Positions 16,715 through 38,206 of a stretch of 64,000 nt of DNA are shown here, piece by piece (position 1 is the stretch's first letter; each line of letters begins with the position of its first letter). The notes under the pieces are model-generated. The model did no database searches and was not told the origin of the DNA. It was given only the letters and a program-made list of their open reading frames with translations. The stretch covers positions 124,001 through 188,000 of the forward strand of contig NZ_JACHGU010000001.1 of NCBI RefSeq assembly GCF_014202435.1, written 5' to 3'. Origin of the DNA: Pseudoxanthomonas broegbernensis. GTDB taxonomy: Bacteria; Pseudomonadota; Gammaproteobacteria; Xanthomonadales; Xanthomonadaceae. A program made the translations under genes and the position numbers.

Positions 16715-16844
16715 GGATGTCTCCTGGCGTCGCGCGCTCCCGCGCGAACGTTGGCTTGGGGGTTGCCGAGGAGAGGAATGCCGACGGAGGGAGCCATGCA
16801 TGCACGGCGCGCTGCCGCCGCCATGCCCTCCGCATCGCAACCAG

Positions 16845-17062
16845 TCGTCTTCCGGGCCGGTCTCCGGGCTCGCAGGCCGGAAGGCGCGCTGCCTTCCCCA
16901 TCCGGGCGCCTTCCCATGCGCATGCACAGTGGCGTCGTGCCCAGATGGTCCTGCCTACCGTTGCGGGGGCAGCGCCGGAATGCCCGGCAGGCGGCCGTCG
17001 CGGCCGCGCCCGGGGTCACCGGCTTCCCGTTTCAACCCGCCGCGCGAGGCTGCAGGTCACCC
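16845..17062 (-). ncRNA. Cobalamin (AdoCbl) riboswitch controlling btuB
   Basis: On the minus strand, in order, the leader shows GTTGAAACGGGAAGCCGGTG, then GCGCTGCCCCCGCAACGGTA, then GCCACTGTGCATGCGCATGG with GGGAAGG, then the B12 box AGCCCGGAGACCGGCC near 16856-16872. These are the conserved core elements of the cobalamin riboswitch in the correct order. It ends about 130 nt before the btuB ATG. Known members repress btuB translation or transcription when coenzyme B12 is plentiful. The boundaries given are approximate. Confidence 0.93.
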
Positions 17063-17128
17063 GAAAGTGCGCGCAGTCTATGCGATCGGCCGGGTGCCGG
17101 CAAAAGCGGGTGGCGCCGGCGCGGGGGC

Positions 17129-33920: not shown

Positions 33921-34816
33921 GGCCCCTTTCGATGTCGGCCCGGGCACTGGCGCTGGCCGCCGGCCTGCTGTGGCTGGCCGCACCCCCGGCCCGGGCGGCC
34001 GAGGATGCCGAGGCCTCGCGGCTGCAGGCGCGGCTGGCCGCGCTCCAGGGCGACCCGGTGCAGGCGCGGCTGGGCATCTACGAGCGGCTGGACGCGCAGC
34101 AGGCCGTCGCCGCCCTGGCCAAGGCCCGCCGCGCCGAGCGCGCCGACGCGCTGTACCTGGCCGAGCGCCGGGTGGAGATTGCCGAGATCGCCGCCGGCAA
34201 CGAGGCCGCCCAGCGCGAACTGGTCCGCCTGGACATGCAGCGCAGCGAACTGCTGCTGGAGGCCAGCCGGCGCGAGGCCGAGCGTGCACGCCGCGAGAGC
34301 GAGCGCCTGCGCATCCAGGCCCAGATCCAGGCCGAGGAGGCCGAGCGCCTGCGCATGGCCGCCGAGGCCGAGGCCGCCGCCCGCAGCGAGGTCGAGGAAG
34401 CGCTGGGCAAGGCCACCGGCCGCCAGACCGCGCAACTGAGCGCGGCCCGGCGCAAGGAGGCCGAACTGGCCCGGCAGGAGGCCGAGCTGGTTTCCGGCAA
34501 GAAGCTGCCGCCGTCCCGCTTCGAGGGCCAGGGCGAGGTCTTCGTCCTGCCGGGCGATGCCTACGGGCCCGGCAAGGCGGCGCTGAGCGCGTCCGGCAAG
34601 TCGGCGGCGTCCGCGCTGGCCGTGTACCTGCAGATCGGCAAGCGCGGAGTGCGGATTGCCGCATGGGACAACGACGCCAAGACCGCCCAGGCGCGTGCGG
34701 CGGCGTTGCGCGACGCCCTGGTGGAGGGCGGCGTGCCGGCCGCGCGGATCAAGGCCGAGGGCCGGCGCGGCGCGGCCACGGCCAAGCGCTCGGCCGAGGT
34801 GACGCTGGCGCCATAG
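33917..34816 (+). CDS. Exported coiled-coil protein with degenerate OmpA-like C-terminal domain
   Basis: 299 residues. A signal peptide (about residues 1-27, ending ARA) is followed by a long charged coiled coil (about 60-190, repeated EAERARRESERLRIQ and EAERLRMAAEAEA). The C-terminal 95 residues have the layout of an OmpA peptidoglycan-binding domain (FVLPGDAYGPGKAALSASGK, YLQIGKRGVRIAAWDNDAKT, ARAAALRDALVEGGVPAARI). The usual NRRVE-type end is changed to AKRSAEVTLAP and key Asp/Arg positions are not all clear. It probably works with the coupled DUF4398 protein at the cell envelope. Confidence 0.75.
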   Translation: MRPLSMSARALALAAGLLWLAAPPARAAEDAEASRLQARLAALQGDPVQARLGIYERLDAQQAVAALAKARRAERADALYLAERRVEIAEIAAGNEAAQRELVRLDMQRSELLLEASRREAERARRESERLRIQAQIQAEEAERLRMAAEAEAAARSEVEEALGKATGRQTAQLSAARRKEAELARQEAELVSGKKLPPSRFEGQGEVFVLPGDAYGPGKAALSASGKSAASALAVYLQIGKRGVRIAAWDNDAKTAQARAAALRDALVEGGVPAARIKAEGRRGAATAKRSAEVTLAP

Positions 34817-34912
34817 GGGCGTTCCGGCGGGATCGGCGGGCGCGTTCCGGCCTCGGTCTCGTGCTGTCATGGGACCTCCACGGCCGCCGGTCGCAAATCG
34901 GCGCAAGGCGGC

Positions 34913-34941
34913 TTGCCGCTGCCCATCGGGTGGAGTAGGGT
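34913..34941 (+). promoter_or_regulatory. Sigma-70-like promoter of the candidate small RNA
   Basis: TTGCCG (34913-34918), a 17-bp spacer and TAGGGT (34936-34941). The predicted start is near 34948, exactly at the 5' edge of the first hairpin of the RNA candidate. No coding sequence starts downstream before the terminator at 35094. Confidence 0.45.
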
Positions 34942-34947
34942 CGATTC

Positions 34948-35129
34948 TCCAGAGGGTGCTTCTGCCCTTTGGACGACCGGAGCCACTGCCGATGCAGCCA
35001 TCCGTTCCGCCAGAGGAGACCGCCGCCGGGTTTCGCACCCCGACCGGCGGTGTCCGCCAGAGTGGAAGCGCATCGGACCCGTTCCGTCCCGACAACGCCC
35101 CGGCCGCAAGGTCCGGGGCGTTCGTTTTT
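34948..35129 (+). ncRNA. Candidate small RNA (about 180 nt) with own promoter and terminator
   Basis: Three hairpins lie in line between two genes. Hairpin 1 is CCAGAGGG / CCCTTTGG (34949-34972), an 8-bp stem with one G-U pair. Hairpin 2 is CCGCCGG / CCGGCGG (35023-35050) with the C-rich loop GTTTCGCACCCCGA. Hairpin 3 is AACGCCCCGG / CCGGGGCGTT (35094-35122) followed by CGTTTTT, an intrinsic terminator. A -10/-35 pair lies just before hairpin 1. No ORF in the interval looks real. C-rich loops are typical of Xanthomonas regulatory RNAs such as sX13, but the sequence is not recognised. Alternatively this is a terminated leader for the DUF465 gene. Confidence 0.5.
35094..35129 (+). terminator. 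Rho-independent terminator (3' end of the small-RNA candidate)
   Basis: A perfect 10-bp stem, AACGCCCCGG with CCGGGGCGTT, a 9-nt loop and CGTTTTT on the plus strand. It lies 278 bp after the previous coding gene and 60 bp before the next start, so it most likely ends a separate transcript. Confidence 0.88.
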
Positions 35130-35189
35130 CCGCCGGCCAGGCTGGCCGGACCACGTGGAATGGACGCGCCACTCCCAGGAGGTGCATAC

Positions 35190-35405
35190 ATGTTCGAAGG
35201 GCAACCGCAGGACCAGATCGATGCGCTGATGAAGCGAGACCCCGAGTTCAAGCAGCTCTACCAGCGGCACCGCCTGCTGGACAAGAAGGTGATGGACGCC
35301 GAGCTCGGCGTGCTGCCGATCGACACCAACACCCTCGGCCAGATGAAGCGCGAGAAACTGGTCGCCAAGCAGCGCCTGCTGCGCATCTACGACCGCGACC
35401 ACTGA
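35190..35405 (+). CDS. DUF465 (YdcH-like) small protein
   Basis: 71 residues. The DUF465 pattern is clear: FKQLYQRHRLLDKKVMDAEL followed by a helical Lys/Arg segment (MKREKLVAKQRLL), forming a short helical hairpin. Function is unknown. The start at 35190 has a near-perfect AGGAGGT 6 bp upstream, so the frame's longer version is rejected. It lies between the small-RNA terminator and the cystathionine beta-synthase gene. Confidence 0.88.
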   Translation: MFEGQPQDQIDALMKRDPEFKQLYQRHRLLDKKVMDAELGVLPIDTNTLGQMKREKLVAKQRLLRIYDRDH

Positions 35406-35584
35406 CGGCCCGGCGGCCTCCCGCCGCGGGCGGCGGTGGCGGCTTCGTGCGCCGCGCCGCCGCCGCCCGTGCCGCGTTCCGGCGCACGCCGCCGCGGCCG
35501 TGGCGGCCCCTACCTGACGCCGACGCCGCTTCCGGCGGATAATCCAGGTTCCGCTGCGTCCGCGCGGCACCGCCACCCGGAGCG

Positions 35585-36964
35585 ATGATGGCCCCGCATG
35601 CCTCCGTGCTCGAACTGATCGGGCGCACGCCCATGGTCAAGGCCCGGCGCCTGGACACCGGCGTCTGCGAGCTCTACCTCAAGCTGGAGAACGCCAACCC
35701 CGGCGGTTCGATCAAGGACCGCATCGGCCTGGCGATGATCGAGGCCGCCGAGCGGCGCGGCGAACTCGCGCCGGGCGCCACCCTGGTGGAAGGCACGGCC
35801 GGCAACACCGGCATCGGCCTGGCCCTGGTGGCGCAGCAGAAGGGCTACAAGCTGATCCTGGTGGTGCCGGACAAGATGAGCCGGGAGAAGATATTCAACC
35901 TCCAGGCCATGGGCGCGCAGGTGGTGCTGACCCGCTCGGACGTGGGCAAGGGCCACCCGGACTACTACCACGACCTGGCCGCGGCCATCGCCGCGCGCAC
36001 GCCCGGCGCCTACTTCGTCAACCAGTTCGGCAACCCGGACAACCCCGCCGCGCACGAGGCCGGCACCGGGCCGGAGATCGTCGAGCAGATGGGTGCGGTG
36101 GGCGGGTTCGACGCGATCGTCTTCGGCTGCGGCAGCGCCGGCACCATGACCGGCCTGTCGCGCTGCTTCGCGCGGATGGCGCCGCAGGTGGAGCTGGTGC
36201 TGGCCGACCCGGCCGGCTCGATCCTGGCCCAGTACGTCAACGAGGGCACGCTCAGCGACCACCTGGGCAGTTGGATGGTGGAAGGCATCGGCGAGGACTT
36301 CCTGCCGTCCATCGCCGACTTCGGCCGGGTGAAGAAGGCCTATTCCATCACCGACGCGGAGAGCTTCCACGCCGCGCGCGAACTGCTGGCCAGGGAAGGC
36401 ATCCTCGGCGGCTCCTCCACCGGCACCCTGCTGGCCGCGGCGCTGAAGTACTGCCGCGAGCAGGCCGCGCCGAAGAAGGTCGTGGTACTGGTGCCGGACA
36501 CCGGCAACAAGTACCTGTCGAAGATGTACAACGACGACTGGATGCTGGACAACGGCTTCCTGGAGCGCCCGCGCCACGGCGACCTGCGTGACCTGATCCT
36601 GCGCCCGCACAGCCGCAACGACACCATCGTGGTCGGTCCGGACGACCTGCTGGTCACCGCCTACCAGCGGATGAAGCTGTACGACGTCTCCCAGTTGCCG
36701 GTGATGGAGGACGGGCAACTGGCCGGCATCGTCGACGAGAGCGACGTGCTGCTGCACGTCTACGGCGACGAGGCCCGCTTCCGAGACCCGGTGCGCACCG
36801 CCATGGTCAGCAAGCTCGACCGCCTGGACGTGAACTCGCCGATCGAGGCGCTGCTGCCGGTGTTCGACCGCGGCCAGGTGGCCATCGTGACCGACGGCGA
36901 GCGCTTCCTCGGCCTGATCACCCGCATCGACCTGCTCAATTACCTGCGGCGGCGGGTGCAGTAG
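35585..36964 (+). CDS. cbs: Cystathionine beta-synthase
   Basis: 459 residues. An N-terminal PLP fold type II domain carries Lys44 in NPGGSIKDRIGL, EGTAGNTGIGLAL and GGSSTGTLLAAALK. A C-terminal pair of CBS regulatory domains (about 335-459) contains YDVSQLPVMEDGQLAGIVDE and RGQVAIVTDGERFLGLITRIDLL. It condenses homocysteine with serine to cystathionine. The heme-binding N-terminal extension of animal enzymes is absent, as usual in bacteria. The second Met codon is an equally possible start. It lies 63 bp before the partner gene for the next step. Confidence 0.95.
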   Translation: MMAPHASVLELIGRTPMVKARRLDTGVCELYLKLENANPGGSIKDRIGLAMIEAAERRGELAPGATLVEGTAGNTGIGLALVAQQKGYKLILVVPDKMSREKIFNLQAMGAQVVLTRSDVGKGHPDYYHDLAAAIAARTPGAYFVNQFGNPDNPAAHEAGTGPEIVEQMGAVGGFDAIVFGCGSAGTMTGLSRCFARMAPQVELVLADPAGSILAQYVNEGTLSDHLGSWMVEGIGEDFLPSIADFGRVKKAYSITDAESFHAARELLAREGILGGSSTGTLLAAALKYCREQAAPKKVVVLVPDTGNKYLSKMYNDDWMLDNGFLERPRHGDLRDLILRPHSRNDTIVVGPDDLLVTAYQRMKLYDVSQLPVMEDGQLAGIVDESDVLLHVYGDEARFRDPVRTAMVSKLDRLDVNSPIEALLPVFDRGQVAIVTDGERFLGLITRIDLLNYLRRRVQ

Positions 36965-37027
36965 GGCGCATCGCCTTCCCGGCAAGCCGCAATCGCATCC
37001 GTATCCCAGACCATCATCGAGGAATCC

Positions 37028-38206
37028 ATGGCCGAACACGCGCCTGCCGAAGACCGTCCGCTCTCGTTCGCCACCTTGGCCATCCACGGCGGGCAGTCGC
37101 CCGATCCCTCCACCGGCGCGGTGATGCCGCCCATCTACGCCACTTCGACCTACGCGCAGAGCAGCCCTGGCGAGCACCAGGGCTTCGAGTACTCGCGCAC
37201 CCACAATCCCACCCGCTTCGCCTGGGAGCGCTGCGTGGCCGCGCTGGAGGGCGGCAGCCGCGGCTTCGCCTTCGCCTCGGGCCTGGCCGCCACCTCGACC
37301 GTGCTGGAACTGCTGGACAGCGGCGATCACGTGCTGGCGATGGACGACCTGTACGGCGGCAGCTACCGCCTGTTCGAGCGCGTGCGCCGGCGCAGCGCGG
37401 GGCTGGACTTCGGCTTCGTCGACATGACCGACCTGGCCGCGTTCGAGGCCGCGATCACGCCCAGGACGCGCCTGGTCTGGATCGAGACCCCGACCAACCC
37501 GATGCTCAAGATCGTCGACATCGCCGCCGTGGCCGCGATCGCGCGCAGGCGCGGCCTGCTGGTGGCGGTGGACAACACCTTCGCCTCGCCCGCGCTGCAG
37601 CGCCCGCTGGAACTGGGCGCGCACCTGGCGGTGCATTCGGCCACCAAGTACCTCAACGGGCATTCGGACATGGTCGGTGGCGCGGTGGTGGCCGGCGATG
37701 CCGACCTGGGCGAGCGCATCGCCTTCCTGCAGAACGCGGTCGGCGCGGTGCAGGGCCCCTTCGACAGCTTCCTGGCCCTGCGCGGCGCCAAGACCCTGCC
37801 GCTGCGCATGCGCGCGCACTGCGACAATGCGCAGGCCCTGGCGGAGTGGCTGCAGGCGCATCCCGCCGTGGAGAAGGTGATCTATCCGGGGCTGGCCTCG
37901 CACCCGCAGCATGCGCTGGCAGGGCGGCAGATGCAGGGTTTCGGCGGCATCGTCTCGGTGGTGCTGAAGGGCGGCTTCGAGGCCGCCAAGCGCTTCTGCG
38001 AGCGTACCGAGCTGTTCACCCTGGCCGAATCGCTGGGCGGCGTGGAAAGCCTGCTCAACCATCCGGCGGTGATGACCCACGCCTCGGTGCCGGTGGAGCG
38101 GCGCGAGCGGCTGGGGCTGAGCGATGCGCTGGTGCGGCTGAGCGTGGGGATCGAGGACGTGGCGGACCTGCGCGCCGATCTGGATCGGGCGCTGGCTTCC
38201 GCGTAG
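37028..38206 (+). CDS. Cystathionine gamma-lyase / gamma-synthase family enzyme
   Basis: 392 residues, fold type I PLP enzyme of the Cys/Met metabolism family. The PLP lysine is K207 in VHSATKYLNGHSD. Other motifs are PPIYATSTYAQ, YSRTHNPTR, FASGLAATST, DNTFASPALQRPL and FTLAESLGGVESLLNHPAVMTHA. Lyase and synthase activities cannot be separated by sequence inspection. Position directly after cystathionine beta-synthase favours the lyase role, giving a homocysteine-to-cysteine reverse transsulfuration pair. Confidence 0.93.
   Translation: MAEHAPAEDRPLSFATLAIHGGQSPDPSTGAVMPPIYATSTYAQSSPGEHQGFEYSRTHNPTRFAWERCVAALEGGSRGFAFASGLAATSTVLELLDSGDHVLAMDDLYGGSYRLFERVRRRSAGLDFGFVDMTDLAAFEAAITPRTRLVWIETPTNPMLKIVDIAAVAAIARRRGLLVAVDNTFASPALQRPLELGAHLAVHSATKYLNGHSDMVGGAVVAGDADLGERIAFLQNAVGAVQGPFDSFLALRGAKTLPLRMRAHCDNAQALAEWLQAHPAVEKVIYPGLASHPQHALAGRQMQGFGGIVSVVLKGGFEAAKRFCERTELFTLAESLGGVESLLNHPAVMTHASVPVERRERLGLSDALVRLSVGIEDVADLRADLDRALASA

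Follow-up and report, generated by a model that had tools for sequence, protein, structure and literature searches.

The locus lies in a 64,000-nt stretch of Pseudoxanthomonas broegbernensis DNA (NZ_JACHGU010000001.1, assembly GCF_014202435.1, positions 124,001-188,000, forward strand), hereafter called the window, in whose numbering all positions are given. On the + strand, a promoter can be read from the sequence, with the -35 element TTGCCG (34913-34918) separated by a 17-nt spacer from the -10 element TAGGGT (34936-34941), and the transcript would start at about 34947. The 5' hairpin UCCAGAGGGU-GCUUCU-GCCCUUUGGA (34948-34973), identified by covariation, stands at the start of this putative transcript. 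It is followed by a Shine-Dalgarno-like GGAG (34979-34982), 9 nt 5' of the start codon of a leader reading frame that begins MQPSVPPEETAAG and runs for 66 codons from the AUG at 34992 to the DUF465 gene (34992-35189), a frame recognized by its depletion of stop codons. Inside this upstream frame lies an intrinsic terminator (35094-35129), composed of a 10-bp stem AACGCCCCGG/CCGGGGCGTT (35094-35122) and a T-rich tail, and 60 nt separate the end of the T tract from the start of the DUF465 gene (35190-35405, +; PF04325, 46.5 bits against a Pfam cut-off of 25). DUF465 is followed on the same strand by genes for a cystathionine beta-synthase and a cystathionine gamma-synthase/lyase-like protein, the three together occupying 35190-38206. 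Between the terminator and the DUF465 start there is a further inverted repeat, GCCGGCCAGGCTGGCCGG (35132-35149), and by eye similar repeats occur at the same place in several Pseudoxanthomonas relatives.

A simple consensus scan of 34000-36000 picked up neither the promoter nor the terminator of the locus. Its limits were 9 of 12 bases for a promoter and 8 nt for a terminator loop, but, counted by hand, 7 of the 12 promoter positions agree with the consensus and the terminator loop is 9 nt long, so both fall outside. Because the scan is blind to the two elements, the case for them rests on conservation. Among 277 loci of at least 600 bases, the 257 that carried both the promoter and the DUF465 pattern were kept, giving 194 unique leaders. 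In these leaders, gathered by a promoter pattern that fixed TTG, TA and T with a gap of 16-18 nt, the gap is 17 in 189 and 18 in 5, and the -10 element reads TAGGGT in 158. The 5' hairpin shows double-sided changes in 6 of its 8 pairs, and its covariation score is 0.494, whereas shuffles give 0.201 and sliding the pairing gives no more than 0.123. A best 5' hairpin of -10 kcal/mol or better was found in 58 of 60 leaders versus 31 of 60 shuffled ones, with median energies of -15.1 and -10.4 kcal/mol, respectively. The 17-bp-spaced promoter and the hairpin at the predicted 5' end, both noticed in a preliminary description made from this sequence, are thus present and conserved.

To follow the element across genomes, we used a model (R1) of the promoter, the 5' hairpin and the next ~30 nt, built on 40 sequences; alignment A1 used 40 of 64 sequences. 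R1 matched 257 of 297 genomes of the Xanthomonadaceae, the family of the window, in 48 of 54 genera. Matches covered all 20 genomes of genus g7 and all 61 of genus g29, as well as 70 of 97 genomes in family f12; partly on grounds of kinship, we take these groups to be Xanthomonas, Stenotrophomonas and Rhodanobacteraceae, respectively. Across the order, 38 of 151 genomes matched, 24 of them inside the window's own family, and the named relatives with the locus include Pseudoxanthomonas, Lysobacter, Luteimonas, Thermomonas and Silanimonas. The P. broegbernensis genome holds one copy of the element, while two matches per genome were seen in at least 10 family genomes among those listed, in one of g29 and in two of f12. 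The preliminary description had suggested looking for conservation between the OmpA-like gene and the DUF465 gene in relatives. The order OmpA-like gene, element, DUF465, cystathionine beta-synthase was kept in all 20 loci inspected, from 20 genomes, and in 14 of 14 loci from other families of the order the element stands before DUF465.

Nine of the 194 leaders are short, at 58-135 nt (L071, L083, L084, L163, L165, L167, L168, L172 and L175), and in all of them the promoter and the 5' hairpin still precede DUF465. Eight of the nine are without a terminator-like hairpin of -9 kcal/mol; the scan did score one in L167, but it lies 6 nt from the ATG and overlaps the ribosome site of DUF465. R1 had no match in the genomes of six of these nine leaders. 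Among the 40 R1-negative genomes of the family, 20 were searched and DUF465 was present in 17; a promoter, in some cases diverged, was visible by eye in at least 16 of 18 loci from these genomes. Since the short leaders keep promoter and hairpin before DUF465 without the usual terminator, we take the promoter to be that of DUF465. The terminator is itself widespread, with 181 of the 194 unique leaders scoring a terminator-like hairpin in a structure scan (L167, one of the 181, is spurious by eye), and the terminator that the preliminary description placed 60 bp before the next gene is accordingly a regular part of the locus. The end of its stem lies no more than 40 nt from the DUF465 start in 117 of the 181, which leaves no room there for another promoter downstream of the terminator. 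As judged from these comparisons, DUF465 is most likely transcribed from this promoter, by way of the terminator; another promoter inside the leader body is possible.

Five long leaders are also without a scored terminator (L065, L066, L075, L161 and L166). In family f12, 21 of 35 leaders have a hairpin that reaches -12 kcal/mol or better and is followed by a T-rich tail, 13 of which end 24-36 nt before DUF465. Three leaders of that family (L299, L300 and L303) have very strong hairpins, at about -30 kcal/mol, which end 29-36 nt short of DUF465; in two of them the T tract is poor. Four metagenome genomes labeled 'Proteobacteria SZAS' (L073, L074, L078 and L079) carry a conserved GGAGC...GCTCC repeat in the leader body and a peptide start ending in P-E-H-R.

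The preliminary description had proposed a candidate small RNA with a C-rich loop, of the kind that Xanthomonas sRNAs such as sX13 use to bind G-rich ribosome-binding sites. A discrete RNA of about 180 nt is indeed likely, because promoter and terminator are conserved together, and several features suit a free-standing sRNA that pairs in trans with other messages and has DUF465 as an incidental neighbor: the fold of 34930-35135 is strong (-108.8 kcal/mol, z -4.8, matched by none of 200 shuffles), the 5' hairpin covaries, and the terminator-like hairpin recurs in the 181 leaders. By eye, a C-rich tract precedes the terminator in many Lysobacter, CTCCC or TTCCC occurs in the g7 alignment, and g7 has a long-range stem with a few double-sided changes. 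However, the loops in the predicted window fold are GCUUCU, UUUCGCAC and GCAA, none of them C-rich. The middle hairpin, for which a C-rich loop had been described, has the loop UUUCGCAC and leaves a single C of its CCCC unpaired; in seven other Pseudoxanthomonas, no predicted loop contains CCCC (L018 has ACCC). The C-rich-loop sRNA was therefore dropped, as the C-rich tract is seen by eye in some clades only, and sX13-like action finds no support in the predicted loops. A freestanding copy elsewhere was likewise discarded, since R1 has a single match in the window's own genome, and in the genomes of L071, L083 and L084 no second copy beyond the leader was found at E <= 0.01. No Rfam family matched the locus at gathering level in the window or in 14 relatives, and membership was rejected on weak matches, the best being the Bradyrhizobiaceae sRNA BjrC68 (E 0.047). 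The sole Rfam match at gathering level in the whole window is a Cobalamin riboswitch (16838-17079, - strand, 80.9 bits). With the short leaders, the constant place before DUF465 and the stop-free frame in the body also speaking against it, we consider the trans-acting sRNA unlikely, while the released RNA might still act in trans.

For the analysis of the leader frame, an ATG and a terminator of at most -9 kcal/mol were required; 173 leaders qualified, 172 of them were long enough, and these were reduced to 108 representatives less than 80% alike. From the AUG to the terminator (3757 codons), the leader frame contains 6 stops, versus 42 and 54 in frames 1 and 2 and versus 39.2 expected from dinucleotide shuffles (Poisson P 5.6e-11, with kinship ignored); the other strand of the same leaders has 29, 17 and 32. 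The statement in the preliminary description that no coding frame explains the interval is therefore contradicted by the frame open from 34992. The start was set as the first ATG 36-85 nt past the -10 element, which by eye is wrong in some leaders such as L124 and L261, and these two hold three of the six stops, a later ATG fitting the consensus context better; the other three stops lie 31-40 codons past the start. Seven leaders without an ATG were excluded from the count, and all seven have GTG at the start site; L203 has a GTG upstream of its assigned ATG. GGAG occurs at -17 to -5 of the start in 42 of 99 leaders, and GAG or GGA in 91 of 99.

The pattern reverses at the terminator. Inside it, stops number 15 in the leader frame versus 5 and 4 in the others, and after it 55 versus 23 and 25. 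Of the 108 representatives, 47 have the first stop of the frame between terminator and DUF465, 14 inside the terminator and 6 before it. The others reach DUF465 without a stop: 23, like the window, in its frame and 18 in another. Altogether 88 representatives, including the window, are open to the end of the terminator stem, and the AUG-terminator distance is narrow, with quartiles of 101 and 114 nt and 102 nt in the window. A frame that stays open up to the terminator, with stops allowed in or after it, is the pattern expected if ribosomes have to be able to cover the terminator. Outside the family the signal is weak at best: family f12 has 4, 6 and 12 stops in the three frames (19 representatives), and 14 loci of f12 and f3 gave 4, 0 and 5, so that comparison shows the full device only for the window's family. 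In the window, the leader frame joins DUF465 without a stop, and read-through together with leader translation would add a 66-residue extension to DUF465 (34992-35405).

Is the peptide itself the product? A real small-protein gene with its own terminator would explain the start codon with its GTG swaps, codon positions that are unequal as in coding DNA (G-first), and a protein-like composition, in which Asp, Gln, Glu and Val are enriched and Arg, Trp and Cys depleted relative to shuffles. It would also fit the loosely kept N-terminal pattern E/D-x-A-A at residues 9-12 and the synonymous excess in the first 15 codons (44 changes versus 32.6 expected in 43 separate pairs of relatives). In the same pairs there is no such excess beyond codon 15 (42 versus 37.5, with frame 1 giving 40 versus 34.6). 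The first 14 codons look coding-like in some other clades, whereas no coding pattern appears there in the Pseudoxanthomonas set that holds the window (synonymous to nonsynonymous 43:124 in frame 0 and 75:72 in frame 2) or in one Lysobacter set (27 to 99). Only 25 of 91 gaps come in threes (58 pairs), and in the 43-pair set 11 of 30 do so beyond codon 15 and 1 of 8 up to that codon. Yet, of the 14 among 43 pairs whose frame lengths differ by a non-multiple of three, 13 are open in both members. Moreover, the 88 frames that pass the whole terminator stem would leave the terminated RNA without a stop codon, and the leader part of the window frame, queried from one codon further upstream, had no match in Pfam or NCBIfam, Pfam matching the DUF465 part only. 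We therefore rejected a conserved small protein as a full account, since the frame is shifted by indels, the stop position varies and the N-terminal support is weak; a gene whose product is the peptide seems improbable to us. To judge from these alignments, evolution keeps the frame open as far as the terminator and loosely preserves an N-terminus with E/D-x-A-A, rather than conserving the peptide.

Comparison among relatives thus bears out the predicted promoter, 5' hairpin, terminator and stop-free frame and ties them to DUF465, and from this pattern we infer the transcript ends, translation of the leader frame, control of termination by ribosomes and the sensing of some signal. The short leaders, the 14 loci of other families, the scant room for another promoter and the stop-free frame all point to a 5' leader of DUF465 with premature termination. 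Accordingly, of the small-RNA proposal the conserved unit stands, with a discrete RNA of about 180 nt likely, and the element is probably better labeled a leader of DUF465 that carries an internal terminator and a frame free of stops and probably translated, possibly yielding an sRNA as by-product. We put at about even the chance that 34913-35189 comprises the DUF465 promoter and a 5' leader with coupled transcription-translation attenuation of the pyrBI type. Transcription would start near 34947, with the 5' hairpin capping the RNA, and the leader frame would start at the AUG 34992 and run stop-free into the terminator about 100 nt on. If no ribosome followed closely, the terminator would fold and release a ~180-nt RNA, in the window one without an in-frame stop codon; if the first ribosome were close behind RNA polymerase, it would cover the terminator stem and DUF465 would be transcribed.

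Several observations count against this mechanism. Synonymous changes show no excess beyond codon 15, most indels are not in threes, the Pseudoxanthomonas set has no coding pattern in its first codons, no general antiterminator was found, and the frame signal outside the family is weak at best. GGAG and AUG are both paired in the predicted window fold. Furthermore, the accessible part of PMC4824070 describes a ribosome as unlikely to catch RNA polymerase while less than 100 bp of a coding region have been transcribed, barring a coupling of the two by, for example, pausing; at the window's distance of ~100 nt, catching up would thus need help such as pausing. According to the same excerpt, a translating ribosome represses a terminator that lies close behind an ORF, with pyrBI as a steep case, and the parts of PMC5021804 at hand state that coupling across pyrL is required to prevent its terminator.

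The leader might also be a plain one, whose terminator sets a fixed low read-through of DUF465 without ribosome control and whose stop-free frame merely shields the RNA from Rho. Consistent with this, the terminator is absent in several lineages, no amino acid is enriched strongly enough to mark regulatory codons, and no general antiterminator was found to compete with the terminator (mean z -0.29 over 94 leaders versus shuffles), although in some g7 leaders 9 consecutive bases pair. Pairing of GGAG with bases 5' of the terminator is frequent in g1 and g7 folds and near zero in many other groups; being confined to some groups, it was dropped as a general feature. One leader set left out L026, L057, L070, L071, L075, L083 and L084, and the antiterminator and GGAG-pairing sets were also without L068. 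Nevertheless, a Rho shield alone would need neither the return of stops only at and beyond the terminator nor the narrow spacing between AUG and terminator, and we give the plain leader little credence.

Beyond the coupled attenuator, we tentatively consider, as a rather doubtful proposal, that the locus may be a family-wide sensor of ribosome-polymerase coupling, in which the absence of stops up to a terminator ~105 nt from the start is kept and the peptide is not. Expression of DUF465, and perhaps of the transsulfuration genes behind it, would then require ribosomes that keep up with polymerase, and every round in which they fell behind would free a stop-less RNA in need of ribosome rescue. 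If attenuation holds true, it would open a way into the function of DUF465, an uncharacterized protein, and most members of a bacterial family would possess a natural attenuator whose frame is kept open while its amino acids drift. It would also be a caution for the annotation of intergenic 'sRNAs', since a translated leader can likewise come with both promoter and terminator. Our search, which judged part of the listed papers by title, found no published description of the DUF465 leader locus; supplements of Xanthomonas sRNA catalogues and most subscription papers lay outside it, and an entry there is possible. The available portion of PMC2965389 does not name DUF465, and those of PMC7694677 and PMC6192180, on known Xanthomonas sRNAs, give no coordinates for comparison.

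Several known systems resemble parts of this arrangement. Here the leader ORF is short and is paired with a terminator; it is not ended before that terminator, no conserved antiterminator accompanies it, and its overall composition, the measure we used, is mildly skewed without a strong enrichment of any single amino acid that would suggest a run of regulatory codons. Cys is even depleted, although Cys/Met genes follow. Ribosome-mediated attenuators of the trp/his type likewise consist of a short leader ORF and a terminator, and thus share the parts and differ in the remaining features. In E. coli pyrBI, the pyrL frame ends beyond its terminator. As in our locus, a terminator there stands between the promoter and the first gene and inside a leader ORF that spans it; for pyrL, translation across the terminator prevents termination, as outlined in the accessible sections of PMC5021804 and PMC4824070; unlike pyrBI, the present locus has no known link to UTP or pyrimidines, its downstream gene is DUF465, and the frame of the ORF relative to DUF465 varies. 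The Xanthomonas sRNAs sX13 and sX6 are likewise short structured RNAs, from a related genus. The sX13 apical loops carry CCCC or CCCCC, according to the part of PMC3771888 available, whereas the predicted folds here have no CCCC apical loops and match no Rfam family; sX6 was first taken for an sRNA and later found to encode a protein, as reported in the portion of PMC5559785 at hand. Finally, the arfA messenger, as far as the accessible text of PMC3989581 describes it, becomes an RNA without a stop codon through a hairpin and premature termination inside its ORF, which is the fate proposed for the leader RNA of the window; in arfA the peptide itself is the product, whereas here another gene follows.
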